A stretch of 64,000 nucleotides of DNA from Streptomyces sp. NBC_00376 (GTDB lineage: Bacteria; Actinomycetota; Actinomycetes; Streptomycetales; Streptomycetaceae), in the NCBI RefSeq assembly GCF_036077095.1, contig NZ_CP107960.1, forward strand, positions 5,704,001-5,768,000, read 5' to 3'. Of the stretch, positions 7,293-29,960 are shown piece by piece; position 1 is the stretch's first letter; each line of letters begins with the position of its first letter. The notes beneath the pieces are model-generated. The model had not been told where the DNA came from, did no database searches, and saw nothing but the letters and a program-made list of their open reading frames with translations. The translations under genes and the position numbers were made by a program.

Positions 7293-7302
7293 GCGACCGG
7301 TT

Positions 7303-8496
7303 CTAGCCGGTCAGGGCCCTGTCCACCAGGCGCCGCGCGGCCGCGTCCTGGGCGTCCTGGGCCGGGTCGCCCATCCGCAGGGTGAACGTGGCGCTGGTCG
7401 CGGCCCGTGAGCCGTCCGGTGTCACCCCGCTCTCGGAGACGATCCCCAGATGGGTTCCGCCGTGGAACCAGATCCCGCCGTCGCTCCCTGCCACCGGGCG
7501 CCAGGCGATGCCCAGCCCGTAACGGACTCCCGGCGCATCGATCCAGTCCTCGGCCACGACCGTCTCCTTCATCGCGGCCAGCTCGGCCGGGCGCAGCAGC
7601 CGGCCGCTCATCAGGGCGCGCAGGAAGACCCCGTGGTCGTGGGTGGTGCTGATGACGGAGCCGTCCGCCCCGCCGCCGGAGGCCAGCGTCGTGTCGGTCG
7701 GCCGGGTGCGGCCGGGGAACCAGGTGTGCGCGGTGGCCGTGGGCCGGGGCAGGTACGGGGAGGTGCCCGGGGTGAAGGTGTGGCGCAGGCCCAGGGGTTC
7801 GACGATCCGGTCGTGGATCTCCCGAGCCCAGGAGTTGCCGGTCACCCGCTCGATGATCAGGCCCGCCACCACGTAGTTGGTGTTGGAGTAGCCCCAGCGC
7901 CGCCCAGGGGCGGGCGCTCCGGCGTCCGGCACCCACAGCGGCGGCCGGCTCAGGGCCGCCCTCAGCTGGTCCTCGGGGGTGGTGGTGCGAAACCGGGAAC
8001 GGAGGTACCCGGCCGGGGTGAACGCGTCGGCAGCGTCGGGCGAGACGGCCAGGTAGTCGTTCAGGCCGCTGGTCTGGCGCAGCAGGTCGGCGACCGTGAT
8101 CCTGCGGCCGTCGTTGCCGTTGCCCCGGACCGCGCCGGGCAGCCACCGCTCGACGGTGTCCGTGAGCGCGAGCCGTCCCTCGCCCACCAGTTGGAGGGCG
8201 AGCGTGGCCGTGAAGGTCTTGGTGTCGCTGCCGATCCGGTAGTAGGCGTCCCAGGGGACGGGGTGGTGCCCGGCTGCCGGGGCGGCGGAGCCGGCGCGGG
8301 CCGTGGTGCGGCCGCGGGCGCTCTGGACCTCGGCCAGTACGCCGGTGGCGCCGGTGGCCACGATCGCGTCCACGTCTTCCTGGAGGTGGTCGCCGAGCCC
8401 GGGACGGTTGCGGGGTGCGGCCGTCGCCGTGGGGGCGGACGCTGCGGTGAGCAGGGCCGCCGCCGTGGCCGCCAGGCCGGTACGTCTGCTGATCAC
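7303..8496 (-). CDS. Serine hydrolase, beta-lactamase/D-Ala-D-Ala carboxypeptidase family (class C)
   Basis: 397 residues from a GTG start. The N-terminal signal SRRTGLAATAAALL has an Arg pair, so export by Tat or Sec is likely. The penicillin-binding fold is supported by the nucleophile motif SDTK (in RIGSDTKTFTA), the YSN triad in WGYSNTNY, and HGG near the C-terminus replacing KTG. Members act as DD-carboxypeptidases, esterases or D-amino-peptidases; the substrate is unknown. Its GTG overlaps the stop of the upstream alpha/beta hydrolase (GTGA), so the two exported enzymes should be made together. Confidence 0.88.
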   Translation of the reverse strand: MISRRTGLAATAAALLTAASAPTATAAPRNRPGLGDHLQEDVDAIVATGATGVLAEVQSARGRTTARAGSAAPAAGHHPVPWDAYYRIGSDTKTFTATLALQLVGEGRLALTDTVERWLPGAVRGNGNDGRRITVADLLRQTSGLNDYLAVSPDAADAFTPAGYLRSRFRTTTPEDQLRAALSRPPLWVPDAGAPAPGRRWGYSNTNYVVAGLIIERVTGNSWAREIHDRIVEPLGLRHTFTPGTSPYLPRPTATAHTWFPGRTRPTDTTLASGGGADGSVISTTHDHGVFLRALMSGRLLRPAELAAMKETVVAEDWIDAPGVRYGLGIAWRPVAGSDGGIWFHGGTHLGIVSESGVTPDGSRAATSATFTLRMGDPAQDAQDAAARRLVDRALTG

Positions 8497-10052
8497 CGGT
8501 CCTCCCCGGTGCGCGGGCAGGTCAGGTCGGCGGCGGGGAGCGTGCCGTCGCGCAGGTAGTCATTGACGGCCCGGTCGGCGCAGGGGACGGAGGTGAGGCC
8601 GTCGAGTCCGCGCCCGTACACCCCGTGCGAGCGGATGTCCGCCGTCACCAGCCGGGAGCCGGTCAGGCGGCGGTGCAGGGCCAATGCCCCTTCGTACGGG
8701 ACGTTGTTGTCGCGCCGGGCCTGGAGCATCAGGACGGGTACGTCGTTGCCGATCACCGTGGCCGGCTCGCGGGACGTGCTCGTCCAGAACGCGCACGGGG
8801 CGATCATGCTGTTGACGAGCGGGCCGAAGACGGGCTGGGTGGCGCGACTGGCCTCCATGTTCCGCCAGTACGTCTCCGGGTTCCGTGGCCAGCCGCCGGC
8901 CGGCCAGCCGCTGTCGCCGCACATGAAGAAGGTGCCGCCCAGCATGCTGTCCGCCAGCTCGGGCGAGGCGAGCAGCTCCAGCATGGCGGCGAGCTCCGGG
9001 CCGGGCTCGACCGGCCTGCCCGCCGCGGCGTCGGCCAGGTCCCGCACCGTGGCGGCGAGCACCGGGTCGTACTCCTCGTGCTGGATGAGCTGCCGCAGCA
9101 CCAGCCGCAGCAGCGGCGCGTCGAGCCGGACGCCGGAGACGGTCACCGGGCGACGCTCGGCCCCGTCGAGCAGCCGCTGGACGCTCGACCGCACACGGGC
9201 GGGCGTGGCGCCGAGCCGGTAGGTGCCGTCGTGCCGGGCGGTCCAGCCGGCCCAGGCGTCCAGCGCCTCTTCGAGCGGTCTGCCCGCCCGCTGGAAGAGT
9301 TCGTACTGGGTGGCCGACGGGTCGGTCGAGGAGTCGATGACGACGCGGTCGGCGCGGCGCGGGAACATCTGGGTGTAGACGGCGCCCAGATCGGCGCCGT
9401 ACGAGACGCCGTAGTACGACAGTCTGCGCTCACCCAGCGCCGCGCGGATCACGTCCATGTCGCGGGCGACGTTCCGGGACGTGGCGTGGGGGAGGAGCCG
9501 GGCGTTGTCCCCGTGCTCCTGGCAGCGGCGTGCGGTGTCGCGGGAGGACCGTACCGACTGCTCGAAGTCCTCGCGACGGGTCGTGACCGGGCCGGGCGCG
9601 GGCGCCGGGGCGGCCGGGTCGCAGGCGACGGGGGTGGACTCGCCGAGGAAGCGGGGATCGAAGCCGATCAGGTCGTAGCGGTCGGCGGCGTCCTTCAACG
9701 CGGGGCGCAGATACAGGGTGCTGGCGAGTCCGGCGCCGCCCGGACCGCCCGGGTTCGACAGCAGGATGCCCCGCCGCTGCCCGTGCTTCGCGGTGGCCTT
9801 GATCCGGGAGACGGCGATCCGGATCGTCCGCCCGCCGGGGTCGGAGTAGTCGAGCGGGACGGTCACCTCCGTGCACTGCGCACCCGCCTCGTTCAGGTCC
9901 CGCTGCTGCGGTGAGCAGGGGCCCCAGACGAGCCGCTGATGGGTGGGTGCGGTGGGTGCGGTGGGGGTGGCGGGGGTGGCCGATGCGGGCACACCGCCCG
10001 CGAGCAGACAGGTCAGGCCCAGGCCGACGGCGGCCGGCGTGGCGACGCGCAT
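8493..10052 (-). CDS. Secreted alpha/beta hydrolase, tripeptidyl aminopeptidase-like
   Basis: 519 residues using the ATG at 10052, which has GAGGAG 4 bases upstream; a TTG four codons earlier overlaps that site and is less likely. A signal peptide with an AxA-type end (about residues 1-27) is followed by an alpha/beta hydrolase domain with LLSNPGGPGGAG as oxyanion region, nucleophile elbow GVSYGAD and a C-terminal TAP-like segment with DIRSHGVYG carrying the likely catalytic His. The layout matches Streptomyces SlpD/SlpE and tripeptidyl aminopeptidases, which trim N-terminal peptides outside the cell. The exact specificity is inferred from the family. Confidence 0.88.
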   Translation of the reverse strand: MRVATPAAVGLGLTCLLAGGVPASATPATPTAPTAPTHQRLVWGPCSPQQRDLNEAGAQCTEVTVPLDYSDPGGRTIRIAVSRIKATAKHGQRRGILLSNPGGPGGAGLASTLYLRPALKDAADRYDLIGFDPRFLGESTPVACDPAAPAPAPGPVTTRREDFEQSVRSSRDTARRCQEHGDNARLLPHATSRNVARDMDVIRAALGERRLSYYGVSYGADLGAVYTQMFPRRADRVVIDSSTDPSATQYELFQRAGRPLEEALDAWAGWTARHDGTYRLGATPARVRSSVQRLLDGAERRPVTVSGVRLDAPLLRLVLRQLIQHEEYDPVLAATVRDLADAAAGRPVEPGPELAAMLELLASPELADSMLGGTFFMCGDSGWPAGGWPRNPETYWRNMEASRATQPVFGPLVNSMIAPCAFWTSTSREPATVIGNDVPVLMLQARRDNNVPYEGALALHRRLTGSRLVTADIRSHGVYGRGLDGLTSVPCADRAVNDYLRDGTLPAADLTCPRTGEDR

Positions 10053-17503: not shown

Positions 17504-17908
17504 TCAGCCCTGGGTGTTCACCATCGAGGCGGCCGCGTAGGTCAGGTAGTCCCACAACTGCCGTTCGTGCTCCGGCGCCAGCCCGAGTTCGTCCAGGGCC
17601 ACCCGCATATGGCCCAGCCAGGCGTCGTGCGCCGCCCGGTCCACCCGGAACGGGACGTGCCGCATCCGCAGCCGGGGGTGTCCGCGCCGCTCGCCGTAGG
17701 TACGGGGCCCGCCCCAGTACTGCATCAGGAACAGCGCGAACCGGTCCTCGGCCGGGCCCAGATCCTCCTCCGGGTACATCGGCCGGAGCAGCGGGTCCTC
17801 TGCGACTCCCTGGTAGAAGCGGTGCACCAGGCGCCGGAAGGTCTCCTCGCCGCCGACCTGCTCGTAGAAGGTCTGCTCCTGAAGCGTGTCGTGCGGATTC
17901 TCTGTCAC
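17504..17908 (-). CDS. glbO: Group II truncated haemoglobin
   Basis: 134 residues from GTG at 17908. It shows the truncated haemoglobin fold: YEQVGGEETFRRLVHRFY (A/B helices with the B10 Tyr region), the YWGGPRTYGERRGHPRLRMRH segment with the likely haem-binding proximal His, and a C-terminal WDYLTYAAASM helix. Trp and Tyr in these positions are typical of group II (GlbO) proteins, which bind O2 and act in peroxide or nitric-oxide chemistry. No ribosome site is visible; GACGAT lies 6 bases before the start codon and could be the -10 of a leaderless promoter. Confidence 0.9.
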   Translation of the reverse strand: MTENPHDTLQEQTFYEQVGGEETFRRLVHRFYQGVAEDPLLRPMYPEEDLGPAEDRFALFLMQYWGGPRTYGERRGHPRLRMRHVPFRVDRAAHDAWLGHMRVALDELGLAPEHERQLWDYLTYAAASMVNTQG

Positions 17909-18035
17909 CCGTCCATCGTCGCAGACGCACCGGCCGAGGACCGGGGACCTAGGCCCTGGTCCGACTCGCCGAACGGCCATCGGGGACCGGCCCGGGTTCC
18001 TGGCCACCGGGCTCCCGGCGCAGGAAGGTGGAGGT

Positions 18036-19016
18036 ATGGACGCGCACACCGACCGGTTCGCCGCGGCCGCCGCCGAGGAGCGGTGGGCGATGGTCCGCTC
18101 CATCGTGGCCGGCGGGGCGCTGGTCGATCCCGGCTGGCGGGCCGCCTTCGAGGAGGTGCCGCGGCATCTGTTCGTGCCGTACTACTTCGTGGCCGGCGGC
18201 TACGACCGCCTGTGGTGCGAGGACCCCGACCCGGTCCGGCGGGCCCAATGGCTGCGCGGGGCGTACGAGGACGGGGCACTGGCCACCCGCATCAAGGACG
18301 GCGAACTGATCTCGTCGAGCAGCCAGCCCTCGCTGATGGCCCGGATGCTCGAAGAACTGGACGTACGGGACGGGCACCGGGTCCTGGAGATCGGCGCGGG
18401 CAGCGGCTACAACGCGGCGCTGCTCGCCCACCGGCTCGGCGACGACGCCGTGACCACCGTCGACCTCGACCCGGAGATCACCGAGTCGGCCCGTCGGCAC
18501 CTGGACGCGGCCGGGTACCACCCGGCGGTGATCACCGGGGACGGGACCCGGGGCTGGCCCCGCCGGGGCCCGTACGACCGGATCATCGCCACCTGCACCC
18601 TGCCGTGCGTACCGCAGTCCTGGCTGGAGCAGTGCGTGCCGGGCGCCCGGATACTGGCTCCGTTCGCCACCGGGCTGATCATGCTGCGGGTGCGGGAGGC
18701 GGCGCACGGGAAGTACGCCGAGGGCCGGTTCCTGCACACGGCCGCCTACTTCGTGCCGCTGCGCGGCAGCCCGGTGCCGCCCGCCCGGCGCCCGCACACC
18801 CGCGCACTGCCGAGGCGCTTCAGCGACAACGACCTCTTCCAGTTCCTGCTGGCGCTGACCGAGGGCTCGCTCGACCCGCGCGAGGCCCTCTCCCTCTGGC
18901 AGCGCGAGAAGCGCCCCGAGCGGGAGAGGTTCGGCATCACGGTCAGGGGCGGTCGGCAGTGGGCCTGGCTGGACGACCCCGAGGGACCGTACGCCTGGCC
19001 ACTGCCGACCGTGTGA
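18036..19016 (+). CDS. PCMT-like (protein-L-isoaspartate) methyltransferase
   Basis: 326 residues from ATG at 18036 with GGAGGT just upstream; the longer frame is unsupported. The SAM-binding motif VLEIGAGSGYNAALLAH and the preceding SSSQPSLMARMLEELD match the PCMT family, where the Ser/Gln loop binds the isoaspartyl substrate. A C-terminal extension of about 100 residues is common in actinobacterial members. Some act in protein repair, others modify peptides. No lanthipeptide or graspetide precursor is seen nearby, so repair or an unknown target is more likely here. Confidence 0.85.
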   Translation: MDAHTDRFAAAAAEERWAMVRSIVAGGALVDPGWRAAFEEVPRHLFVPYYFVAGGYDRLWCEDPDPVRRAQWLRGAYEDGALATRIKDGELISSSSQPSLMARMLEELDVRDGHRVLEIGAGSGYNAALLAHRLGDDAVTTVDLDPEITESARRHLDAAGYHPAVITGDGTRGWPRRGPYDRIIATCTLPCVPQSWLEQCVPGARILAPFATGLIMLRVREAAHGKYAEGRFLHTAAYFVPLRGSPVPPARRPHTRALPRRFSDNDLFQFLLALTEGSLDPREALSLWQREKRPERERFGITVRGGRQWAWLDDPEGPYAWPLPTV

Positions 19017-19068: not shown

Positions 19069-20340
19069 TCAGCCGCGGCGGATCGTGATCGTCGTCCACG
19101 CCCCGACGTGCACCTTGTCGCCGTCCTGGAGCGGGACGGGCACATAGGGCTGGATCGGGTCCTCGGCGCCGTTGAGCGTGGTGCCGTTGGTGGAGTTCTG
19201 GTCGACCACGGCCCAGCCGCCGTCGGGCTGCTGCACCAGCACCGCGTGCTGGTGCGAGACGCCCGGGTCCTCCGGCGGCACGGACAGATCGATGTCGGGC
19301 GACTCGCCGGTGCTGTGCCTGCGACGGCCGATGGTGATCTGGTTGCCGGCCAGCGGAAGCTGCTGCTCCGGGGAGTACGCGGGCAGGTTCAGCCCGGTCG
19401 CCTCGGGGCCGCTGCGCTGCATCATCGCCAGGAAGTACTCCCGGTCCGGGGCGATGACCGCGGTCCAGCTCGCGGGCGGCTGGTTCTGGTTCTGCCCCGG
19501 GAACGGCGGCTGCTGCTGCGCCGGGGCCGACTGCTGCGGGCCCTGGGCGTGGGACGGCGGCGACAGCATCCAGTCGTCGTCGCCGCTGCCGCTGCTCTGC
19601 GGCCCCTGCTGCTGCGGCGCGGGCGGCTGCGGAGCCGGCGGACCGGGCTGCGGGAACGCGGGCGGCGCGGACTGCTGCTGGAACGGTGCCGGCGGTGCCG
19701 ACTGCTGCTGGAACGGCGGCGGCGCGGACTGCTGCTGGAACGGCGCGGGCGGTGCCGACTGCTGCTGGAAGGACGGCGGAGGCGGCGGACCCTGCTGCTG
19801 GAACGGCGGCGGGGGCGACTGCGGACCGGGTCCGGGGGCCGGGGGCGACTGCGGGCCCGGGCCGGGGGCCGGGGGACCGGGCTGGTTGCCCCGCTCGGCG
19901 GAGAGCGGCTCGGCCGGGCGGTTCATCTGCGAGGGCCGCGAACCCTGGTACTCGAACGGGTCGCGCTGCTGCTGCGGCGGGGGCGGCGGCTGCTGCGCCT
20001 GGAAACCGGGCGGCAGGTTGAGGCCGGGCGGCGGGCCTGGCACGCCCTGAGCCGGGGCCAGCGGCGTGTACGACGTCGCGGTGTTCGTGAGGAAGTTCCA
20101 GCGGCACTCCTCGCAGAACGGCGCCATCGCCTCACGCGGCGTGCGGCACTGCGGGCAGAGCTCGGCGGCCTGGGTCGCATCGGAACCCGGGTTCGGCGGG
20201 TAGCCGTAACCGGCGGCGGGCGGCGGAGGCGGCGGCGGGGGGACCGCACCCGCAGGCGCGCCCGCGCCGGCCATGCGATGGCCGCAGACCTCGCACCAGT
20301 CGTCGGAACCCGACTGGTGTCCGTTCGGGCAGGTCGGCAT
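19069..20340 (-). CDS. Zinc-ribbon, Pro/Gln-rich FHA-domain protein
   Basis: 423 residues. The N-terminus has two zinc-ribbon Cys sets (Cys4, 16, 19 with a probable His/Cys partner; Cys62, 65, 76, 79). A long Pro/Gln linker follows with FQQQSAPPAP-type repeats (about residues 140-260). The C-terminus is an FHA domain with IGRRRHS, VSHQHAVLV and NSTNGTTL, the residues that bind phosphothreonine. It is the last gene of the kinase-phosphatase operon and is the natural reader of that kinase's phosphorylation. Its partner is inferred. It is much larger than GarA, the FHA substrate of mycobacterial PknG. Confidence 0.9.
   Translation of the reverse strand: MPTCPNGHQSGSDDWCEVCGHRMAGAGAPAGAVPPPPPPPPAAGYGYPPNPGSDATQAAELCPQCRTPREAMAPFCEECRWNFLTNTATSYTPLAPAQGVPGPPPGLNLPPGFQAQQPPPPPQQQRDPFEYQGSRPSQMNRPAEPLSAERGNQPGPPAPGPGPQSPPAPGPGPQSPPPPFQQQGPPPPPSFQQQSAPPAPFQQQSAPPPFQQQSAPPAPFQQQSAPPAFPQPGPPAPQPPAPQQQGPQSSGSGDDDWMLSPPSHAQGPQQSAPAQQQPPFPGQNQNQPPASWTAVIAPDREYFLAMMQRSGPEATGLNLPAYSPEQQLPLAGNQITIGRRRHSTGESPDIDLSVPPEDPGVSHQHAVLVQQPDGGWAVVDQNSTNGTTLNGAEDPIQPYVPVPLQDGDKVHVGAWTTITIRRG
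19640..19880. repeat. Imperfect repeat coding for the FQQQSAPPxP linker
   Basis: Degenerate GC-rich repeats of about 27-33 bp encode repeated FQQQSAPPAP units in the FHA protein. On the plus strand each begins close to GACTGCTGCTGGAACG. Such tracts change copy number easily. Confidence 0.75.
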
Positions 20341-20476
20341 GTCGGCGCTTCCCCCTCTCCTGGGCCGGCCCCGGGGCCGGCGTATTTTTCTGCTCTTCGC
20401 CTCCCGGCGGATCATTCCGGCCGGGCGGCTCGACTGTGTGGCTCTGTGCCTACTGTTTGCTGTTTATTGATCGTTT

Positions 20477-21835
20477 CTACTTCTTGACGCGAACGGTCTT
20501 GGTCGAGCGTGTTTCGAGTGTCATCTCGTCGGCGTCCGCGACCTTCGCTTTCAGTCGCACAGTACCGGTCGCCGCGTCCACGACGTCCACCACCTTCGAA
20601 AGCAGTTTCGCAGTGTCCTCGTTCCCGGAGGCCGATGCCAACTGCACCGCGCGGCCCAGTTTCGCGGTCGCGCCGTCGAAGTCGCCCGACTTGCGGGCAT
20701 CGAGTCCCTGCTGGATGACCTGGGCCAGTTCGGCCTGTCCGGTGTAGTGCGCGACCTGCGGATTGATCGAGGTGGAGGCCACCATGTCCTCGGTCCACAC
20801 GGCCCTGACCAGGCCCTGCGAAAGCGTCTGCGGGGCCCCGCCCGACGGGTCGGGGAGGATCAGCGAGACCCGGGACGCCAGCATCTCCTGCCCGATTCCG
20901 GCCTGCGGCACGGTCACGCACACGTGGTAGTCGCGGGACTCGTCGCCCCAGGAGCCCGTGGGGTAGTCCCCGGCGCGGGGACCCGCCTCGGTGCGCCGGT
21001 CGGTCAGATCGACGACCGTCGGTGCGACCTGTTTCACAAACTTGATCTCGACCCCGACGGGCGTCCAGAGCCGCAGAGCGACATCCGCGACCTCCTTGCC
21101 CATCGCGTTCTCCATCATCTGCGTGAAGTCCGCGGCCAGCCCCGTGGGGTCGGCGACTATGTCGGCCGTGCCGAGCAGCGCGGAGGCGATCGCTGTGACC
21201 TCTTTCACCTCCCAGTCGGTGCCGACACCGCGGGCGTCACAGGTGAAACGGCCCGCGCAGGAGTCGAGCGCGGCCCGCAGGTCCTCCGGGGCTTCGTGCT
21301 CGTTGCGGCCGTCGGTGAGCAGGATGCCGTGCCGGATGTCCACATCGGCCGCGCCGAGCAGCCGGTCGGTCAGCCGCAGCCAGGTGCCGATCGCCGTACC
21401 GCCACCGGCGCTGAGCGCGCGCAGGGCCCCCTTGGCCTGGGCCTTGGTCCGCGCGTCGGCCACGGCGAGCCTGCCGTTGCCCGGGTAGACCTCCTTGGCG
21501 ACGTGCGTACCGCCGACGACGGCGAACGAGGTGCCGTCGCGCAGGGTGTCGATGGCCGCGGCGGTCGCGTCGCGGGCGTTGCGCATCTTCGTCGGCGGAT
21601 AGTCCATCGAGCCGGAGCAGTCGACCATGATCACCACGGCGGCGTTCGGCCCCCGCCCGGGAACGTGCGCGGGCGACGCGGCCGCACCGGACAGCGGGAC
21701 GCCGCCGGTGGTGCCGCCCCCGGTCGAGGTGACGGTGACGATCGCGTTGACCTCGCGGCCGCCTTCCGGCAGATATTCGTTCTGGTACACCTCGACGGAG
21801 AACTGCGGCACGTTCGACTTGGAGAAGTTGGCCAT
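20477..21835 (-). CDS. von Willebrand factor A domain protein (TerY-like)
   Basis: 452 residues, start MANFSKSNVPQF. The vWA domain (about residues 60-250) has an intact metal-ion site: DCSGSMD (Asp72, Ser74, Ser76), the GGGTAIG threonine and LLTDGR. Such domains bind a partner protein through a bridging Mg2+. A beta-rich middle and a C-terminal helical region (about 380-450) follow. No signal peptide, so it is cytoplasmic. It lies between the phosphatase and FHA genes. vWA, PP2C and kinase genes together are known from TerY-P triads, but this protein's target is unknown. Confidence 0.9.
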   Translation of the reverse strand: MANFSKSNVPQFSVEVYQNEYLPEGGREVNAIVTVTSTGGGTTGGVPLSGAAASPAHVPGRGPNAAVVIMVDCSGSMDYPPTKMRNARDATAAAIDTLRDGTSFAVVGGTHVAKEVYPGNGRLAVADARTKAQAKGALRALSAGGGTAIGTWLRLTDRLLGAADVDIRHGILLTDGRNEHEAPEDLRAALDSCAGRFTCDARGVGTDWEVKEVTAIASALLGTADIVADPTGLAADFTQMMENAMGKEVADVALRLWTPVGVEIKFVKQVAPTVVDLTDRRTEAGPRAGDYPTGSWGDESRDYHVCVTVPQAGIGQEMLASRVSLILPDPSGGAPQTLSQGLVRAVWTEDMVASTSINPQVAHYTGQAELAQVIQQGLDARKSGDFDGATAKLGRAVQLASASGNEDTAKLLSKVVDVVDAATGTVRLKAKVADADEMTLETRSTKTVRVKK

Positions 21836-21957
21836 CTGGTCGGCTCCTTGGGACTCCAGGTGTCGGATGAAGACAGCTGAGAGCGAAGAAAAACGGGCGA
21901 AGGCGGCGGTGACGGGGCGGACTGTCGGAACTGGAACCAAGCGTTACGGAACGGGAC

Positions 21958-23280
21958 TCACGGGGTACCGCACGCCGATCCTGCCCCCTGCGGCTCCACG
22001 GCGAACGGCAGCAGAGCCACTGTTACGTTGTCGTGGCCCCCGCCGTCGAGCGCGTGACCCACCAGCACCTGGGCGGCGTGCAGTGGCCGTTGGTGCGCGT
22101 CGGCCGGTACCGCCGCGGCCATCTCGGCCGCCGACTCCGCGTAGTTCCACAGGCCGTCCGTGCACACGACCACCAGACCGGACCGGTCCGGTTTGAAGGA
22201 CGCGGTGTGCGGTTCCAGCTCGTACGCGTCGGCGCCGAGCCACCCCGTGATCGCGTGGGCCCGCTCGTCCGCGTACGCCTCCGCCTCGTTCATCAGGCCC
22301 GCCGCCACCATCTGCGCGGCCCACGAGTCGTCCTCGGTCAGCCGGGCGGGCGGGTTGGTGCGGTCGTCGGGCACCCAGTAGACGCGGCTGTCGCCGACCC
22401 AGCCGACGATCAGCAGACCGCCCGCCATGATCGAGCCGACCAGGGTGCACGCCGGGGCGTTCTGGTGGCGGTGCTGGTCGTGCTCCGTGGCCCGGCCGGG
22501 CTCCTGGGCCAGGGAGTTGACCGCCTCGCCGGCCGCGAGGATCGCCTCGTGCATCGCCTGCTGCGGGTGGGTGCCGCGAGGCAGCGACTCCAGGAGCGCC
22601 TCGTTGGCCGCGCTCGCGGCGGCCGCCGACGCCTCGTCCGGGCGGCTGGCCGACGAGACGCCGTCGCAGACGATCGCGACGACGGCCGGTGAACCGTCGG
22701 GCAGGGCGGTGGTCGACACCGCGAACGAGTCCTCGTTGCGGTGATGGCGCAGGCCCCGGTCGCTGACGGCGGCCACCGAACCGAGCTCCTGCTCCATGTG
22801 GTCACGCTCGCGCGGCTGGGCGTGACCGCAGTTCTCGCAGTAGCCGTCGGTGTCGACACTGCCCGCCCGGCAGGCCACACAGCGCTTGGTACCGGCCGGC
22901 GGCGTGGCCGCCACCGGATCCACGGCGGGGGTACGGGGGTCGGGTGCGGCCGCCGGTGCGGGCGCGGGCAGCTCGAAGTCGTCCGATCCGCTCGACGTGC
23001 TCGACGCACTCGGCCCGCTCGACGCACTCGACACATTGGATGTGCCCGGTCCGGCCGGTCCGTCCGGTTCACGCCGCCGGTCGAAGCGGACCCCCGCCGA
23101 ACCCTCCGCGGGCACGGTCATGGCGACCGTCGGGTGGTCCTGGGCGACGGCGGGCACGGCCGACAGGTCGTACCCGCACGCACCGCAGAACAGGTCCCCC
23201 GGCTCCAGCGGCTCCTCGCAGCCGGGGCACTTCGACAGGGCCGTCTCCTGGGGCTTCTGCTCCTGGGGCTTCTGCGACAT
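21958..23280 (-). CDS. PP2C-family Ser/Thr phosphatase with two zinc ribbons
   Basis: 440 residues from ATG at 23280, 2 bp after the kinase stop. Zinc ribbons occur at Cys18/21/32/35 and Cys134/137/148/151, separated by a Ser/Pro-rich linker. The PP2C domain (about 165-430) has the metal-binding motifs RNEDSF, VCDGVSS, GDSRVYW, CTDGLWN and GGHDNVTVAL. It would remove phosphates placed by the adjacent PknG-like kinase, as kinase/PP2C pairs usually do. It is soluble and metal-dependent. The zinc ribbons match those in the kinase and FHA protein and may help assembly. Confidence 0.92.
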   Translation of the reverse strand: MSQKPQEQKPQETALSKCPGCEEPLEPGDLFCGACGYDLSAVPAVAQDHPTVAMTVPAEGSAGVRFDRRREPDGPAGPGTSNVSSASSGPSASSTSSGSDDFELPAPAPAAAPDPRTPAVDPVAATPPAGTKRCVACRAGSVDTDGYCENCGHAQPRERDHMEQELGSVAAVSDRGLRHHRNEDSFAVSTTALPDGSPAVVAIVCDGVSSASRPDEASAAAASAANEALLESLPRGTHPQQAMHEAILAAGEAVNSLAQEPGRATEHDQHRHQNAPACTLVGSIMAGGLLIVGWVGDSRVYWVPDDRTNPPARLTEDDSWAAQMVAAGLMNEAEAYADERAHAITGWLGADAYELEPHTASFKPDRSGLVVVCTDGLWNYAESAAEMAAAVPADAHQRPLHAAQVLVGHALDGGGHDNVTVALLPFAVEPQGAGSACGTP

Positions 23281-23282
23281 TT

Positions 23283-26009
23283 TCACACCCACGTCCGGGG
23301 GCGGAAACGGTTGGCCCGCTCCACCAGTTCGATCCTCTCATCGCCGGGCTCCGCAAGCCTGGCGAGCATCCGGTACGAACGTTCGAGCCCGAAGCGCAGG
23401 CCCCGCTCGTCCAGCTCACTGCCGAGCAGCTTTCCCGGCCCGGCAGGCGAAGGAGGCTGCGCCGAGGGGCTACCGGAGAGTATCCAGTCGAGCGCCGTCC
23501 CCAGCACCTCGGTCGAAAGCTGCTCCCGGCGCACCGCGTCCAGACCGAAACCGGCCAGTGCCGATACCTGGGCCGAGGCGGCCATCAGATCGGTGATCAG
23601 CGGCTCGTCCGGGGACCTTCCGCGCAGCCGGGCACGCACCGCGGCGACCCGTGCCGCCGTGTAGTGGATCGACGCCTCGGGCACCGACTCCAGGGCGCTG
23701 ACGGCCCCGGCCCGGTTTCCGGCGGCGATCTGCACCCGGGCCAGCCCGAAGGCGGCGCTGACGAAGCTCGGGTCGGTCGTCCACACCAGCCGGTAGTACT
23801 CGGCGGCGTTGTCCAGCTGGCCCAGGACCTCCGCGCAGATCCCCAGCGCCAGCTTGGGCGCCGGCTCGCCGGGGAACGCGTCGTACACCGCGTCGAAGGA
23901 CAGCGCCGCGTTCTCGTTGTCGCCGGTCACCAGCGAGGTGATGCCGCGGTACCAGACCACCCGCCAGTCGTCCGGGTACTGGCCCTCCAGCGCGGTCAGG
24001 GTCTGCCCCGCGGCACCGAGGTCGTTCAGCTCCAGGCGGGCGCGCAGCTCGCGCAGCCGGGTCTCCAGCGAGGCCACCGGCACCGCGCCCAGCGCGGAGA
24101 TCAGCTCGGACGGGGCGGTGGTCATCAGCCCGGCGAGGAAACCCGCGTTGGGGTCGCTCGCGTCGACCCGGGGCACCGGCAGCGCGAGCGAGGTGGACCG
24201 TACGTCGAGCTCGGCGAGCCTAGGGCCGTCCGGCGCGGGGAGGAGCGCCGCCGGAGCGGCGGCCGGGACCCGGGGGGCCGGAATGGCGGCCTGCGGCTGC
24301 GCGTACGCGGCGGCCTCACCGTTCCCGCCCGGCGCGTTGCCCGCCCGTACATGGGTGGGCGGCGCGATCAGCGGAGCGGCCCCGGGCGCGGCGTACCCCG
24401 GCGCGGGCGGGGCGTACCCGGGCAGCGCGCCGGGCGCGGGCGGAGCCGCGACCCGGGGCACGTTGCCCGCCCCGCCGCGCCGCCCGCGGCGGCCGGACCG
24501 GGCCGGGGTGGTCGCCCGGATCCCCAGCCGCGACACATCGCCCATCGGCTCCGGGAACAACTGCGTGTCGGTGACCCGCACTTCGGTGCCGAACAGCGTC
24601 GAGAGCGCCGGGCGCGGCCGCCCCGTCTGCAGCGACACCACCTCGCGCAGCACACCCGTCAGCTGCTCCGCCATCTCCGCGGCCGAGGCGAACCGCCGCG
24701 CCGGATCCGGGTCGGTGGCCCGCACCAGCAGCCGGTAGAACGACTCGTAGGTCCGGAACACCTCGATGTTGTCCGGATCCGGGAGCGAGTCCACGAAGAC
24801 GTTGGTGTAGCCCTGGAAGTCGAAGGTGAGCACCGCGAGCGTCCGCGCGACCGTGTACAGATCGGAGGCGACCGACGGGCCGATCTCCGCGACCTCCGGC
24901 GCCTGGTAGCCCACCGTGCCGTAGATGGCCGACTCGTCGTCGTCCATCCTGCGCACCGCGCCCATGTCGATCAGCTTCAGCTGGTCCTCGGTCTGGATCG
25001 CGTTGTCGACCTTGAAGTCGCAGTACAGCAGGTTGCGGCTGTGCAGATGGCCGAGCGCCTCCAGCGCCTCGATGCCGTACGCGCACGCCTGCTCGACCGG
25101 CAGCGGATCGCGCTTCCCGGCGGGGGTGCGGCGCTCGTTGGCGATGTCCTTGAGCGCCTTGCCGCCGACGTACTCCATCACGATGTAGCCGTCGAGCGAG
25201 CCGGTGCGCTGGTCGAGGTGCTCGACGAAGTTGTAGATCCGGACGATGTTGGAGTGCTCGATCTCGGCGAGGAAGCGGCGCTCGGAGATCGCGGCCGCCA
25301 TGGCGTCCTGGTCGCCGGTGTCGAGCAGGCCCTTGAGGACCACCCAGCGGTCCGAGACCGCACGGTCGACCGCGAGGTAGACCCAGCCGAGCCCGCCGTG
25401 AGCCAGACAGCCGGCGACCTCGTACTGGCCGTGCACGATGTCGCCCGCGTGGAGCTTGGGCACGAAGGAGTAGGGGTGACCGCACTTGGTGCAGAACCCC
25501 TCCGTGCGGCCGATCCGTTCGCCGCGCGACCGGCCGACCGGGGCCCCGCAGTCGGAACGCGAACAGAAACGCTTCCGCTCCGGTACCTCGGGGTTCTCCA
25601 TCACCGCCGAGCGCGGGTCGGGACGCGGCACGTCCGGCACCTCGACCAGGCCCACGCCCAGCCTGCCCCGGGTGGACGCGCCCGAGGCCGAACCGGAGGA
25701 ACGGACCGAGACCGAGGGGGAGGTGACGCTGCCGGACAGCGAACGCGAGAGCCGGCCCGACACCGAGCGCCGTGAGGTCGACGAGCGCGAGGAACGGGAC
25801 GACCGCGAGGACGCCCGGGACGAGGACCGCGAACCACTGCTGCTGCCACGGCTGTTCGCGCCGCCGACCGCGATCCCGGTGGGCGGCGAGCTCACCAGGC
25901 CATTCGGCGACACGACCGGAGCCAGCCCGCAGGTGTCGCAGTACAGCTCACCGCCGCCCATGTCCTCGTAACTGCCCTCGCACGCGGGGCGCTGGCACTG
26001 CGTACTCAT
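23283..26009 (-). CDS. pknG: PknG-like Ser/Thr protein kinase with zinc ribbons and TPR domain
   Basis: 908 residues from ATG at 26009 behind GGGGGA. In order: a zinc ribbon (Cys5, 10, 24, 27), a Ser/Arg-rich linker (about 53-115), a rubredoxin-like Cys set (149, 154, 173, 176), a kinase domain (about 190-460), a Pro/Ala-rich linker and a C-terminal TPR region. Lys226 in VVLKGL, Asp331 in YCDFKVDN and Asp348 in DMGA are the catalytic residues; there is no Arg before the catalytic Asp, so it is a non-RD kinase. Domain order and motifs such as CLAHGGLGW and IVMEYVGG closely match mycobacterial PknG, which controls 2-oxoglutarate metabolism through an FHA protein. The first zinc ribbon and Ser-rich linker appear to be additions relative to the mycobacterial protein. 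Confidence 0.94.
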   Translation of the reverse strand: MSTQCQRPACEGSYEDMGGGELYCDTCGLAPVVSPNGLVSSPPTGIAVGGANSRGSSSGSRSSSRASSRSSRSSRSSTSRRSVSGRLSRSLSGSVTSPSVSVRSSGSASGASTRGRLGVGLVEVPDVPRPDPRSAVMENPEVPERKRFCSRSDCGAPVGRSRGERIGRTEGFCTKCGHPYSFVPKLHAGDIVHGQYEVAGCLAHGGLGWVYLAVDRAVSDRWVVLKGLLDTGDQDAMAAAISERRFLAEIEHSNIVRIYNFVEHLDQRTGSLDGYIVMEYVGGKALKDIANERRTPAGKRDPLPVEQACAYGIEALEALGHLHSRNLLYCDFKVDNAIQTEDQLKLIDMGAVRRMDDDESAIYGTVGYQAPEVAEIGPSVASDLYTVARTLAVLTFDFQGYTNVFVDSLPDPDNIEVFRTYESFYRLLVRATDPDPARRFASAAEMAEQLTGVLREVVSLQTGRPRPALSTLFGTEVRVTDTQLFPEPMGDVSRLGIRATTPARSGRRGRRGGAGNVPRVAAPPAPGALPGYAPPAPGYAAPGAAPLIAPPTHVRAGNAPGGNGEAAAYAQPQAAIPAPRVPAAAPAALLPAPDGPRLAELDVRSTSLALPVPRVDASDPNAGFLAGLMTTAPSELISALGAVPVASLETRLRELRARLELNDLGAAGQTLTALEGQYPDDWRVVWYRGITSLVTGDNENAALSFDAVYDAFPGEPAPKLALGICAEVLGQLDNAAEYYRLVWTTDPSFVSAAFGLARVQIAAGNRAGAVSALESVPEASIHYTAARVAAVRARLRGRSPDEPLITDLMAASAQVSALAGFGLDAVRREQLSTEVLGTALDWILSGSPSAQPPSPAGPGKLLGSELDERGLRFGLERSYRMLARLAEPGDERIELVERANRFRPRTWV

Positions 26010-26074
26010 GATCGGTCCCCCTGATCGCCCCGCCGCCGCAACGGCCCTGCCACCTTGCACACATCCGTGGTCAT
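26006..26074 (-). CDS. Putative 22-residue leader ORF between coiled-coil gene and kinase
   Basis: An ATG at 26074 overlaps the stop of the upstream coiled-coil gene (ATGA), and the TGA at 26006-26008 overlaps the kinase start (ATGA). The peptide reads MTTDVCKVAGPLRRRGDQGD followed by RS. It fills the whole 61-bp gap. It may couple translation or be a regulatory peptide, or it may be chance. The preceding CCGGAGGACC supplies a possible ribosome site. Confidence 0.4.
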   Translation of the reverse strand: MTTDVCKVAGPLRRRGDQGDRS

Positions 26075-27393
26075 CGCCGGTCCTCCGGCCCCGGTGCCCG
26101 GCGCTGGGAAAGCAGCTCGGCCGCCGCCTCCTGGTAGCGCAGCACCGCCTGTCCGGCGACCCGCAGATCGCACGGCGCGCTCCACAGCATCCGGCGCGCC
26201 GCGTCGTACCGCTCGATCAGCAGCGGGTCCTCGGCCAGCCCGTGCCGGGCGACCTTCGCCTTGTACGCGTCGAGCCTGCCGCGCAGCTCCGCCCGTACCG
26301 CCAGCGGGGCGGTGACCGCGGTCAACGACTCGCGGGCCCGCAGCAATTCCTCCTCCGCCTCCCGCTCCAGCGTCTCCAGGAGCGGGGACAGCCGGTGCCA
26401 CTGGGCGTGCCTGCGGTACTCCGAGGCGGCGGCCAGCCGTTCCTGGAGCACCGTCGCCGGGCCGCTGACCGCGGGCACCTCGGAGGCCGCGATCTTCGCC
26501 AGCACCTCACCGCGCGCCGACCGGGCCTCGGTCAGGGTGCGGTCCGCGCGGGAGAGCACGTCGCGCAGCTGGACCAGGCGCTGCTCGGCGTCCTGCCGGA
26601 CCGCGAGCACCGCCTCGATCTCACGGCGTACGTCGTCCAGGGCGCGGGCCGCCCGGTCGTAGCGCGTCGTGTCGGGGCGGCCGCCGCCGGGCGCCGAACT
26701 GCCGGGCCCCGGCAGCCAGAACGCGAGGGGATCGGAGATCACCTGCGCCCGCAGCGTGGTCAGCTCCTGGGTGATCGCCGCCAGGTCGTCGCCCGCCGGG
26801 TGCTCACCGGGCCGTACTCCCACGGAGTGCGCCAGCGAGCGGGTGCGGTGCAGCTCGGCGGCGAGCAGATCTATCCGGGCGGGCAGCGCGGACCACACGG
26901 AGTCGGAGGCGACGACCATGTCCAGCGAGCGGGCGTACAGCTCGTTCATCCGGGAGACCAGCTCCTCCAGCGTGAACCGCTCGGAGAGCTTGGCCGGACC
27001 GTTGACCGAGGGATCGGGGCGGGCCGCCGCGTGCGCCACGGTGACGCCCTGGCCGCGCAGCAGCTCGGTGAGGGCCAGCAGGTCGTCCCGGTTGGGATAG
27101 CGGCGGCGGGCCCGCACCGAACGGGCCCGGTCGAGCGCCCCCGCGTAGGCGTCGAAATACCCCCACAGCAGCGTGATCGACTGCTCCGTGGAGGCCCAGC
27201 GTTCCCTGGTGACGCCGGTCAGCTCGGCGCCCTCCAGGAGCCGGCGGCCCGCGTGGTCCTGCAGGGCGAGCAGCGAGGTCTCGATCGCCTCGTGCTCCGC
27301 GCCGAGCCGGGCCAGCGCGCGGTCCGCCTCGTCCCGGTCCATGACCGGGCCGGGGGGCCTGGCCGCATAGCCGGGGAAGGGGCCCGCGCCCAT
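26071..27393 (-). CDS. Coiled-coil protein of the kinase operon, unknown function
   Basis: 440 residues, ATG with GGAGAGG upstream. After a short Gly/Pro stretch the sequence is almost wholly alpha-helical, Ala/Arg/Glu-rich, with long heptad-like stretches (for example LERLEQRLREVE-like patterns around residues 20-110 and 230-400). There are no membrane segments, signal or catalytic motif. It sits between the binding-protein and kinase genes, where the mycobacterial glnX-glnH-pknG cluster has no counterpart that I know of. A scaffold or adaptor linking the sensor to the kinase is plausible but unproven. Confidence 0.75.
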   Translation of the reverse strand: MGAGPFPGYAARPPGPVMDRDEADRALARLGAEHEAIETSLLALQDHAGRRLLEGAELTGVTRERWASTEQSITLLWGYFDAYAGALDRARSVRARRRYPNRDDLLALTELLRGQGVTVAHAAARPDPSVNGPAKLSERFTLEELVSRMNELYARSLDMVVASDSVWSALPARIDLLAAELHRTRSLAHSVGVRPGEHPAGDDLAAITQELTTLRAQVISDPLAFWLPGPGSSAPGGGRPDTTRYDRAARALDDVRREIEAVLAVRQDAEQRLVQLRDVLSRADRTLTEARSARGEVLAKIAASEVPAVSGPATVLQERLAAASEYRRHAQWHRLSPLLETLEREAEEELLRARESLTAVTAPLAVRAELRGRLDAYKAKVARHGLAEDPLLIERYDAARRMLWSAPCDLRVAGQAVLRYQEAAAELLSQRRAPGPEDRR

Positions 27394-27413
27394 CGATCAC
27401 CTCTCCGCTCTTA

Positions 27414-27434
27414 CTGCCGGGACGTACCCGGCAG
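27414..27434 (-). promoter_or_regulatory. Small hairpin upstream of the coiled-coil gene
   Basis: CTGCCGGG and CCCGGCAG form a perfect 8-bp stem with a 5-nt loop in the 105-bp gap after the GlnH-like gene. It could reduce read-through within the operon or stabilise the upstream message. Confidence 0.45.
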
Positions 27435-27498
27435 GATCAGTGCCACTGCCTCACCGGCCGGGGTCCGCGCCGTCGCGCACACCCGGACGGACCGACCG

Positions 27499-28542
27499 TC
27501 AGTTGCTCCGGTACTTCGGGGCCGGCGGTCCCTTTATCCCCGGCAGCCCGGCCTCCAACCAATCCTGGTACGACAGCATCCAGGCGCTCTTCGCACCACC
27601 ACTGCGGTAGTCGACCAGCACCTGGTTGACCCGGGCCACCAGATCGTCGGCCCCGAGCTTCGCCGCCACACCGTAGTACTCGGTGGTGAACGGCTTGTCG
27701 CCCTTCAGCTCGACCGCCGGGTCCTGGGCCGCCTGTCCGGCCGCCAGGGCGTTGTCCGTGACCACCGCGTCGACCTCACCCATCTGCAACCGCACCAGGC
27801 AGTCCAGCTGGTTGGGGACGGTGAGCTGGTTCTCGTCCGCGGCGGTGCCGTCGTGCGGGTCCTCGAAGACCGCGCCGAACGACTGCTTCTTCAGCGCGTC
27901 GTAGGCGGTGGAGCCGTTGGCGGTGCAGACGCGCTTGCCGGCCAGGGACTTGTCGTACCCGGTGATCGACGATTCCTTCGGTGCGAGGACCTGTTGTCCG
28001 GCCTGGAAGTAGGCGGTGGAGAACGAGACCTTCCGGGCCTGCTTGCAGTTGATCGTCATCGTGCGGACGACGACATCGACCTTGCCGTTCGCCAGGAGCT
28101 CGGCCCGCTTGTTGGTGGGAATGGCCCGGAAGATCACCGCGTCGCGGTCGTTCAGGATGTTCTCGGCGATGGCCCGCACCAGATCGATGTCGAAGCCTTC
28201 GATCTGACGGTTCTCCGGATTGCGGTATCCCCAGCGGAAGCTGTTCTGGTCGACCCCCGCGATCAGCTTCCCGCGCTTCTTGATCTTCTCGATGCTCGGA
28301 CCGTCGGCGGACGAGGGCGGGAGGCTCGCCTCCGGGTCCGTGCAGTCGTCGGCCTTGGCCTGGACGGCCTGTGAGGTGCCCTGGCCCGCGAGGTCCCCGA
28401 TGAAGGCGTCGGCGCCGCCGTGGGAGAGCGGCAGCAGGGTGAGCGAGGCCGTCACGGCGCAGGCCGCGGCCATGGCTGTCACTCCGCCCCAGCCGCGCAG
28501 CCTGACCCGGGCCGACCATGCGCCCATGCGCTTCCTGGTCAT
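27499..28542 (-). CDS. GlnH-like extracellular amino-acid-binding protein
   Basis: 347 residues from ATG at 28542. Three ATGs lie within 30 bases; this one has AAAGGAGGAG six bases upstream, while the first overlaps the GlnX stop. A signal region (about residues 10-50) has no convincing lipobox, unlike mycobacterial GlnH. The solute-binding fold shows KIKKRGKLIAGV, GFDIDLVRAIAENIL and a C-terminal WL-rich helix. Family members bind Glu, Gln or Asp. Position beside the GlnX-like and PknG-like genes, with no ABC permease, argues for sensing rather than uptake. Confidence 0.9.
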   Translation of the reverse strand: MTRKRMGAWSARVRLRGWGGVTAMAAACAVTASLTLLPLSHGGADAFIGDLAGQGTSQAVQAKADDCTDPEASLPPSSADGPSIEKIKKRGKLIAGVDQNSFRWGYRNPENRQIEGFDIDLVRAIAENILNDRDAVIFRAIPTNKRAELLANGKVDVVVRTMTINCKQARKVSFSTAYFQAGQQVLAPKESSITGYDKSLAGKRVCTANGSTAYDALKKQSFGAVFEDPHDGTAADENQLTVPNQLDCLVRLQMGEVDAVVTDNALAAGQAAQDPAVELKGDKPFTTEYYGVAAKLGADDLVARVNQVLVDYRSGGAKSAWMLSYQDWLEAGLPGIKGPPAPKYRSN

Positions 28543-28568
28543 CGCTCCTCCTTTCATCGCTCCCCCGC

Positions 28569-29960
28569 TCATCGGTACTCCGAGAGCCTGCGGTTGATCC
28601 CGATGATCGCCGCGGCGGCGCCCAGCACGGCCAGCACGGCGGCCCCGGCCGACAGTCCCCACAGCGCCCCGCGCCCGTCCTCGGCGGCCCGGGTGAACTG
28701 GTCCTGCTCATGGGCTAGTGCCTTCGCCAGCGCGTCGTCCACCTGCTGGAACGACTCACCCGTCGACTTCTCGGGCCCGACGATCTGCTTCAGGGCACCC
28801 TCGTAGTCACCGTTGTCGTCGGTGGTGCGGGCGGCCCGGTGACGTTCCTGCCACTCGGTGACGGCGGCGGAGGCGGCCTTCACCGGATCGCTTCCCCGGG
28901 CGTCGTCCGCGAGCCCCCCGGCCTTCCCCAGCTCCTCGCCGAGTGCCTTCATGCCCGTGTTGTAGTCCGTCTCGTACTTGTCGTTCTTGCCGTCCGGGGT
29001 GAGCACCGCACCACGGGCGACCAGCGTGAGGTTCTCATTGGCGCGGGCCTTCAGCGAGTCGATCCGCGCGTGGTTGAGCACATCGAGGGACTGCTGCCCG
29101 TTCACATCCGCGGCATTCAGCTGGGACCGGGCCACCGTGTGCCCCACGGCCAGCCACAGCAGGATCACGGTGGACGCGGCGGTCGCCACGAGCAGCCCGT
29201 GGTTGAAGACCCGGTTCGTCCTGCGGTAGTTGCGCCGCTGCGCCCAGACCAGCCCGGCCAGCGCCACCACACCGAGCCCCAGCGAGAGGAAGGGCAGGGT
29301 CCGCGCCGAGTCGTTGTCCTCGCCGAGCCGGCCGGTCTCCGCCGCGTACAGCCGCTCGGCGGCCGGCAGCAGCACGTTGCTCATCTTCTGGTTGGCGTAC
29401 CGGAGATAGGCGCCGCCCAGCGGCAGACCCTGCCGGTTGTTGGCGCGGGCCCGCTCGATCAGGCCCGTGTAGCGGGGGAGTTCCACGTTGAGCGTGGTGA
29501 TCTCCTGCCCGGACTTCGTCGCCGCGTCCGTGTTGGCGGCGGCCTTCACCAGCAGCCGGGACGCCTCCTTGATGTCCCGCTCGTACTGGTCGTGGACATC
29601 GCGCGGCTCCTGCGCCCCCGCCAGGAAGCCGCTCGCAGCCGCGGTGTCGGCATCGGCCAGCGAGCGGTAGACGGCCGCCGCGTCGGCGCTCAGCGGCTGG
29701 CTGCGGCCCACCACGTCACCGGCGGCGGACTCGCGGTCGGCGACCTCGAACGCCGTCACGGCCCCGAACGCGACGACGAGCAGGGCCAGCACGGCCCCGA
29801 TGATCTGGAGCCTGCCGGGCTCGGTGGTGGCCGCGGCCCGCACCCGGTCGGCGGTCATGGACAGCACACCGCGCTGCTGCGGAGCGGGTACGGTCGCGGG
29901 CGCGGGCGGCTGCGCCTGCTCGTGTTCCGGCGCCGTGCGCACACTCGGCGGGTATGTCAC
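28569..29960 (-). CDS. GlnX-like membrane sensor protein
   Basis: 463 residues from GTG at 29960 behind GGGGGAGG. Four membrane helices are visible: about residues 52-72, 222-241, 255-275 and near the C-terminus (435-457). Two helical extracellular domains lie between helices 1-2 and 3-4, of the four-helix type found in chemoreceptors. The N-terminus is cytoplasmic and Pro/Gln-rich. Mycobacterial GlnX has this topology and passes the GlnH signal to PknG. The downstream binding-protein gene overlaps or nearly overlaps this stop, so the two should be made together. It is the first gene of the operon. Confidence 0.87.
   Translation of the reverse strand: MTYPPSVRTAPEHEQAQPPAPATVPAPQQRGVLSMTADRVRAAATTEPGRLQIIGAVLALLVVAFGAVTAFEVADRESAAGDVVGRSQPLSADAAAVYRSLADADTAAASGFLAGAQEPRDVHDQYERDIKEASRLLVKAAANTDAATKSGQEITTLNVELPRYTGLIERARANNRQGLPLGGAYLRYANQKMSNVLLPAAERLYAAETGRLGEDNDSARTLPFLSLGLGVVALAGLVWAQRRNYRRTNRVFNHGLLVATAASTVILLWLAVGHTVARSQLNAADVNGQQSLDVLNHARIDSLKARANENLTLVARGAVLTPDGKNDKYETDYNTGMKALGEELGKAGGLADDARGSDPVKAASAAVTEWQERHRAARTTDDNGDYEGALKQIVGPEKSTGESFQQVDDALAKALAHEQDQFTRAAEDGRGALWGLSAGAAVLAVLGAAAAIIGINRRLSEYR

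Follow-up and report, generated by a model that had tools for sequence, protein, structure and literature searches.

What does Streptomyces do with a GlnX-GlnH-PknG nutrient-sensing module whose genes run on into those of a phosphatase, a von Willebrand factor A (vWA) protein and a forkhead-associated (FHA) protein? We addressed this question in Streptomyces sp. NBC_00376 (RefSeq assembly GCF_036077095.1, contig NZ_CP107960.1), using the 64,000-nucleotide stretch at positions 5,704,001 to 5,768,000 of the forward strand, hereafter the window. Seven minus-strand genes lie there at 19069-29960 in the order glnX-glnH-cc-pknG-pp2c-vwa-fha. An earlier note, made from the sequence alone, had called seven same-strand genes over this interval and had read them as a GlnX-GlnH-PknG module joined to PP2C, vWA and FHA genes; Pfam and NCBIfam scores confirmed the families, and the linkage proved to be widely conserved. 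Whether the seven genes act as one nutrient-responsive phospho-switch, in which PknG would phosphorylate the vWA tail, the FHA protein would clamp it and PP2C would reset it, is in our judgement an even call.

Features of the locus (window coordinates):
28569..29960, minus strand: glnX, four-transmembrane (TM) signal transducer of 463 amino acids (NF058618 483 bits; four hydrophobic segments; translation)
27499..28572, minus strand: glnH, solute-binding protein of the SBP_bac_3 family; hydrophobic segment at the N-terminus; overlaps glnX by ATGA
26071..27393, minus strand: cc, all-helical coiled-coil protein (CC) with a conserved C-terminal ELRGRLxAY...APCDL segment
23283..26009, minus strand: pknG; from the N-terminus, a zinc-ribbon-like Cys motif and a Ser-rich linker, then rubredoxin, non-RD kinase and TPR domains
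25452..25673, minus strand: PknG rubredoxin domain (PF16919, 110.6 bits)
24822..25421, minus strand: PknG kinase domain, best Pfam stretch (PF00069, 86.3 bits)
23292..24221, minus strand: PknG TPR domain (PF16918, PknG_TPR, 303.5 bits)
21958..23280, minus strand: pp2c, PP2C phosphatase (PP2C_2, 47.4 bits) with two N-terminal zinc-ribbon motifs
20477..21835, minus strand: vwa, predicted ArnB-type tripartite fold; ortholog of PDB 4FX5
21608..21622, minus strand: vWA MIDAS motif DxSxS, kept in 44/45
21758..21784, minus strand: vWA QNEYLPEGG loop, strands 1-2, 10th of 16 conserved segments listed (translation)
20495..20515, minus strand: candidate cluster of phosphosites in the vWA C-terminal tail, ETRSTKT (translation; residue conservation)
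19069..20340, minus strand: fha, zinc ribbon plus FHA domain, an arrangement like that of ArnA; long linker rich in Pro and Gln
20104..20157, minus strand: zinc ribbon of the FHA protein, C-x2-C-x10-C-x2-C (sequence motif)
19102..19338, minus strand: FHA domain (PF00498, 56.6 bits)

Conservation of the seven-gene locus

The gene-order comparison across Streptomyces that the earlier note had proposed returned the identical order in all 20 Streptomyces loci picked from PknG matches and in 68/80 named loci; among the other 12, 11 are cut by contig ends and L168 is without a GlnX match. We also surveyed 80 loci with profiles (L040-L119, hand-picked across families, so that counts are not frequencies; the degenerate L100 was left out). 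The PknG-PP2C-vWA-FHA core lay on one strand, within 11 kb, in all 51 core loci, which came from eight of the nine families sampled. By family, the core occurred in f1 (20/20), f7 (5/5), f41 (1/1), f83 (1/1), f109 (1/1), f89 (15/17), f90 (6/9, one miss, L119, being a cut contig), f3 (2/15) and f113 (0/3), and in none of five Streptomyces second-paralog loci.

PknG_TPR exceeded its family cut-off in 31/396 genomes of the phylum and was found at 1e-20 in 140/394 genomes of the class and 139/150 of the genus. GlnX (1e-10) occurred in 139/394 class genomes and VWA_3_C (1e-6) in 97/394. PknG and GlnX occurred together in 138/394 (exceptions: G418 and G582, PknG only; G369, GlnX only), and PknG accompanied VWA_3_C in 94/97 genomes (exceptions G369, G410, G658); these genomes are related, and the Fisher p values are descriptive only. 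Taken together, the conserved gene order and the co-occurrence over 394 genomes point to linkage beyond chance.

Gene starts were chosen by frame, spacing and the starts of orthologs. With these starts, no intergenic gap exceeds about 140 bp, glnX and glnH overlap by ATGA, and pp2c begins 2 bp past the pknG stop; the right end, 29960, is the GTG start of glnX, with GAGGGGGAGG just upstream. A promoter and terminator scan of the window gave nothing above chance (0 promoters; 2 terminators vs 2.3 expected). Spacing by itself suggests that the seven genes are co-transcribed. The operon contains no amino-acid transporter gene, in keeping with the binding protein without a permease described earlier.

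One Streptomyces locus, L100 (G369:C25:38500-58400), holds a degenerate module, where the GlnX, GlnH, PknG and vWA matches are split or much weakened and the CC, PP2C and FHA scores are the same as in intact loci.

PknG, the vWA and FHA proteins and a possible phospho-switch

The kinase combines the kinase and PknG_TPR domains with the rubredoxin domain that marks PknG outside Corynebacteriaceae, and in the PDB it matches M. tuberculosis PknG (2PZI, 2e-167). Lys243, Asp348, Asn353 and Asp365 of PknG are conserved in 61/61 sequences and the scored Asp residues of PP2C in 44/44 (window plus fetched loci, as for the MIDAS and FHA-domain residues). A loose N-terminal zinc-ribbon pattern was found in 41/44 PP2C and 42/44 FHA proteins. 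The CC protein was present in 43/51 core loci (three weak, 33-40 bits) and in one (L119, cut contig) of the 20 PknG loci without both vWA and FHA; no Pfam family reached its cut-off with this protein, and a PDB sequence search at E 1 came back empty.

The vWA protein scored 81.4 bits with VWA_3_C and 37.2 bits with VWA_3, and its sole PDB sequence match at E 0.001 was 4FX5 from Catenulispora acidiphila (5.1e-140). Its predicted fold, a vWA domain inserted in a beta-sandwich and followed by a C-terminal helical domain, matches over its full length the tripartite fold of ArnB, a component of the archaeal starvation switch. In ArnB, the beta1-beta2 loop contacts the zinc finger of ArnA (PMC12852372). 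The QNEYLPEGG loop may correspond to it, the two being equated by strand order and not by superposition. In the C-terminal tail, T482 is invariant (44/44), position 479 is Ser in 43/44, position 480 Ser or Thr in 40/44, and T477 is kept in 38/44. In L110, at 7120-9822, PP2C and vWA domains share one open frame of 901 codons.

The FHA domain retains its Ser, His and Asn in 44/44 sequences and its Arg in 43/44. The window protein carries an ArnA-type N-terminal CxxC-x10-CxxC ribbon; across the set the spacing was x10 in 31/44 and x8 in 11/44, and two of the 44 had no ribbon. At E 0.01, the PDB matches listed for the FHA domain include GarA and OdhI chains, weakly and behind the corresponding domains of plants and RNF8 (best GarA value 1.4e-4); ArnA is not among them. 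The inner half of the operon looks like the archaeal starvation switch.

Gene content, its conservation, the catalytic and binding residues, the predicted vWA fold and the tail motif are shown by the sequences; in what follows, all phosphotransfer and binding steps, the part played by CC and any output are inferred. An extracytoplasmic ligand bound by GlnH would signal through the four-TM GlnX to PknG, probably via the TPR domain, the route proposed for Mycobacterium and Corynebacterium. Active PknG would then feed two branches: (a) phosphorylation of GarA/OdhI encoded elsewhere and (b) phosphorylation of the vWA protein in its tail, the conserved Ser/Thr stretch at the C-terminus (window sequence ETRSTKT). 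In branch (b), the zinc ribbon of the FHA protein would seat loosely on the vWA protein and the FHA domain would clamp the phosphorylated tail, as ArnA does on ArnB; PP2C would reset the switch, and CC may hold the inner half together as a scaffold. By this scheme, the mycobacterial operon with its three genes would have been reduced to branch (a). Of the combined pathway put forward in the earlier note, the gene linkage stood; the flow of signal through it is offered here in conditional terms.

The GarA branch bears on a second proposal of the earlier note, in which the operon FHA protein was itself the PknG substrate or effector, like GarA, and the kinase, PP2C and vWA genes formed a TerY-P-like triad. 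Its phosphothreonine-binding residues are intact and its weak PDB matches include GarA and OdhI, as that proposal would have it. With the OdhI model the operon protein scored only 24.8 bits. A different gene in this genome, which has an ETTST site, scored 188.9 bits (the formal cut-off, 200 bits, was not reached). An ETTS site was absent from all 42 N-termini inspected among the 44 operon FHA proteins. A GarA/OdhI role of the operon FHA protein is not supported, and the genome has a separate GarA-like gene. The ArnB-type fold of the vWA protein over its length argues against the triad, and we consider this proposal unlikely as a whole. In L001, the ETTST site of the GarA/OdhI-like frame (739-1848) is preceded by a long N-terminal region that includes a zinc ribbon.

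A further alternative is that PknG controls itself: the FHA protein would read the autophosphorylated, Ser/Thr-rich N-terminal linker of PknG, PP2C would dephosphorylate it, vWA and CC would be passive scaffolds, and GarA/OdhI would be the sole metabolic output. A Ser-rich linker was found in all five Streptomyces PknG N-termini inspected, pp2c directly follows pknG, and OdhI/GarA is recruited by PknG via a phosphorylation-dependent mechanism (PMC8546545). This scheme leaves unexplained both an ArnB-like vWA protein with an invariant Ser/Thr tail and the PP2C-vWA-FHA sets of L110 and L112, which have no PknG nearby, and we hold it to be somewhat unlikely.

For the sensor pair, membership of GlnX in its family is clear (NF058618, cut-off 250), and its four hydrophobic segments bear out the four-helix membrane sensor described earlier; it falls far under the narrow equivalog NF041460 (182.2 bits vs a cut-off of 780). 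GlnH belongs to SBP_bac_3 (70.7 bits) and has Mtb GlnH as its best PDB match (6H1U, 1.4e-41); the solute-binding protein described in the earlier note stood. Pocket residues were taken as the contacts in the Mtb GlnH-Asp complex (R147, T162, S164, R169, W232, D250), in which Trp232 touches the Asp side chain and R169 holds the ligand alpha-carboxylate (PMC6069109, PMC9769921). R147, T162 and D250 are kept in all 21 aligned Streptomyces GlnH; position 232 is Tyr in 12/12 f89 sequences. R169 is kept in 67/69 named Streptomyces loci with a GlnH match, the near relative L120 having Gln and L142 Lys.

Several observations count against a single integrated switch. At its input, S164 is Thr and W232 is Gln in 21/21 Streptomyces GlnH, and R169, Arg in the 20 other aligned Streptomyces, is Gln in the window; the window protein thus lacks the full Mtb Asp/Glu pocket, and because of the W232 and R169 changes the ligand, and even ligand binding by the window copy, are uncertain, as is Glu/Asp as the ligand of Streptomyces GlnH in general. 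The vWA protein and ArnB share a fold but only 14% identity. ArnB phosphosites lie in helices alpha8-alpha9, whereas the candidate sites here are in a flexible C-terminal tail. That tail is a short motif picked after the fact, and its contrast between loci with and without FHA lacks phylogenetic independence, since five of the six FHA-less loci group as a single paralog clade. Watad et al. place ArnB-like architectures elsewhere mostly outside multi-phosphorylation processes. At the level of linkage, 78 of 111 VWA_3_C places lay within 8 kb of a PknG_TPR place, among the matches listed; some of the remaining 33, not all, are on broken contigs. Among the 51 core loci GlnX was present in 50 and GlnH in 49 (L113 without both, L093 without GlnH), the sensor pair is downstream in f89 and divergent in L078, which makes the linkage not rigid, and in L110 and L112 the DNA retrieved contains PP2C-vWA-FHA and lacks PknG. 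These last rearrangements, and the fact that mycobacterial-type operons function without the inner half (PMC6069109), are what would be expected if a three-gene sensor and a PP2C-vWA-FHA set were merely co-located and signalled separately. The linkage outlasts the rearrangements, the core lies on one strand in 51/51 core loci, and VWA_3_C genomes nearly always have PknG; simple co-location is therefore, in our view, very unlikely.

Ancestry, paralogous loci and surroundings

We built a PknG tree (78 rows, 671 columns, nine rows untrimmed) by a quick method with a midpoint root. Family f3 is taken as mycobacterial because the GlnH N-terminus of L060 is nearly the Mtb one. The 13 core-less f3 rows formed one clade (100), sister (99) to the f3 pair that has all of the module, and the other large groups around f3 carry the core. 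As the core-less mycobacterial-type loci are one nested clade, the core is probably ancestral, and the simplest reading is that both f113 and the mycobacterial-type line lost it, subject to the root, long branches (L113, L104, L108, L097 and L109 among others) and horizontal transfer into f3. The three-gene version of Mycobacterium and Corynebacterium may thus be a stripped-down remnant of the full module. The occurrence of the core in f41, outside the class and represented by one draft genome, suggests, without proving it, that the module predates the class. The f3 loci L070 and L101 have the full seven-gene module in genomes that also carry core-less PknG loci (L068 and L069; L102 and L103).

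A second PknG-like locus, L104 (G000:C1:2553000-2572900), and likewise L105-L107 and L109, contains a PknG-like kinase and a vWA protein with a C-terminal Cys-rich, zinc-ribbon-like end, and no PP2C or FHA by profile. A trypsin-like gene lies upstream of the kinase in the four loci scanned for it (L104, L105, L106 and L109), and in L105-L107 and L109 the vWA gene is followed by one for a GlnX-like protein with four TM segments (57-70 bits). Trypsin is also present in vWA-containing conflict systems, and this paralogous cluster, joining trypsin-like gene, PknG-like kinase and vWA, would fit a stress or anti-phage role for the operon, as would the vWA-containing conflict systems of multicellular bacteria (PMC7159879). 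Of GlnX, CC, PknG, PP2C, vWA and FHA, the six proteins compared with PADLOC, PknG alone matched, via its generic kinase domain; no effector domain was found, and both the flanks, common to 18/20 Streptomyces loci, and the near-constant presence of PknG_TPR in the genus differ from patchy defence genes. We regard such a role as exceedingly improbable.

Those flanks comprise NagK-like, GH4 and PCMT-like genes, each in 18/20 Streptomyces loci and in one of the L060-L119 loci; no extra gene was consistently attached beside the module. By family search, the genes next to the operon on its upstream side encode a sugar-kinase-like protein and a GH4 glycosidase. A permease-like gene farther upstream was called sugar-type by eye only, with no family search. 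The convergent neighbour at 17886-19016 (plus strand) is a PCMT-like methyltransferase whose score with the ATP-grasp peptide maturase methyltransferase model, 265.5 bits, is below the cut-off of 380. Among named relatives, Streptomyces sp. ADI95-17 (L120) has the vWA gene nearest to that of the window (97% identical).

Comparison with known systems

The TerY-P triad consists of vWA, PP2C and kinase, the same three domain classes, and to this extent the earlier parallel stood; it looks weaker than the one with ArnA/ArnB, with which the vWA fold is shared over its length. The operon vWA protein is larger, ArnB-type and assigned to VWA_3/VWA_3_C, a separation made without direct comparison to a TerY model, and none of the seven genes had a TerD-type match in Pfam or NCBIfam. 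The pknA/pknB-pstP-fha operon of actinobacteria likewise keeps kinase, PP2C and FHA genes together; it is a cell-wall and division locus that is not known to include a vWA or solute-binding sensor. The PstP locus is treated in PMC6554272. The threonine phosphorylation pathway of Type VI secretion (PpkA-PppA-Fha) also groups kinase, phosphatase and FHA, and a vWA domain occurs in the PpkA kinase of Pseudomonas (PMC1262709); no secretion genes were seen at our locus, and its vWA is a separate, ArnB-type protein.

Another close system is the GlnH-GlnX-PknG-OdhI/GarA pathway of Mycobacterium and Corynebacterium, with homologous GlnX, GlnH and PknG (rubredoxin and TPR) and a GarA/OdhI-like ETTST gene in the genome; the operon differs in its four added genes (CC, PP2C, vWA, FHA) and in the W232 to Gln change of the GlnH pocket. 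Bhattacharyya 2018 (PMC6069109) reported sensor, kinase and effector to be conserved in Actinobacteria including Streptomyces, with operon conservation from STRING (Fig. 2B); the word "phosphatase" is absent from its main text. In the open-licence PMC literature, some of it opened in part, we saw no description of the PP2C/vWA/FHA extension, and none linking PknG to ArnA/ArnB; no paper there named ArnA, ArnB and PknG together. The mode of GlnX-PknG interaction is described as 'still elusive' (PMC9769921), and the module bears on this wiring as well as on roles of PknG beyond GarA, for example in Streptomyces. If the full module is ancestral, existing models show it in reduced form, and missing partners should be looked for in Streptomyces. 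The orphan structure 4FX5 would gain a pathway, and a candidate PknG substrate, phosphosites and reader are named for antibiotic producers.

The archaeal ArnA/ArnB/ArnC/PP2A starvation switch of Sulfolobus shares with the operon a zinc-ribbon plus FHA protein, a tripartite vWA protein whose fold matches, a Ser/Thr phosphatase, a kinase that includes a TPR-like stretch, and a nutrient cue. The phosphatase is PP2C here and PP2A there, and the operon adds a dedicated membrane sensor and CC. We tentatively raise the possibility that vWA/zinc-FHA and ArnB/ArnA descend from one ancestral nutrient phospho-switch, wired in Actinobacteria to GlnH-GlnX via PknG, of which mycobacterial and corynebacterial PknG-GarA would be the remnant after loss of the switch. 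The comparison links bacterial and archaeal starvation switches in a testable way.

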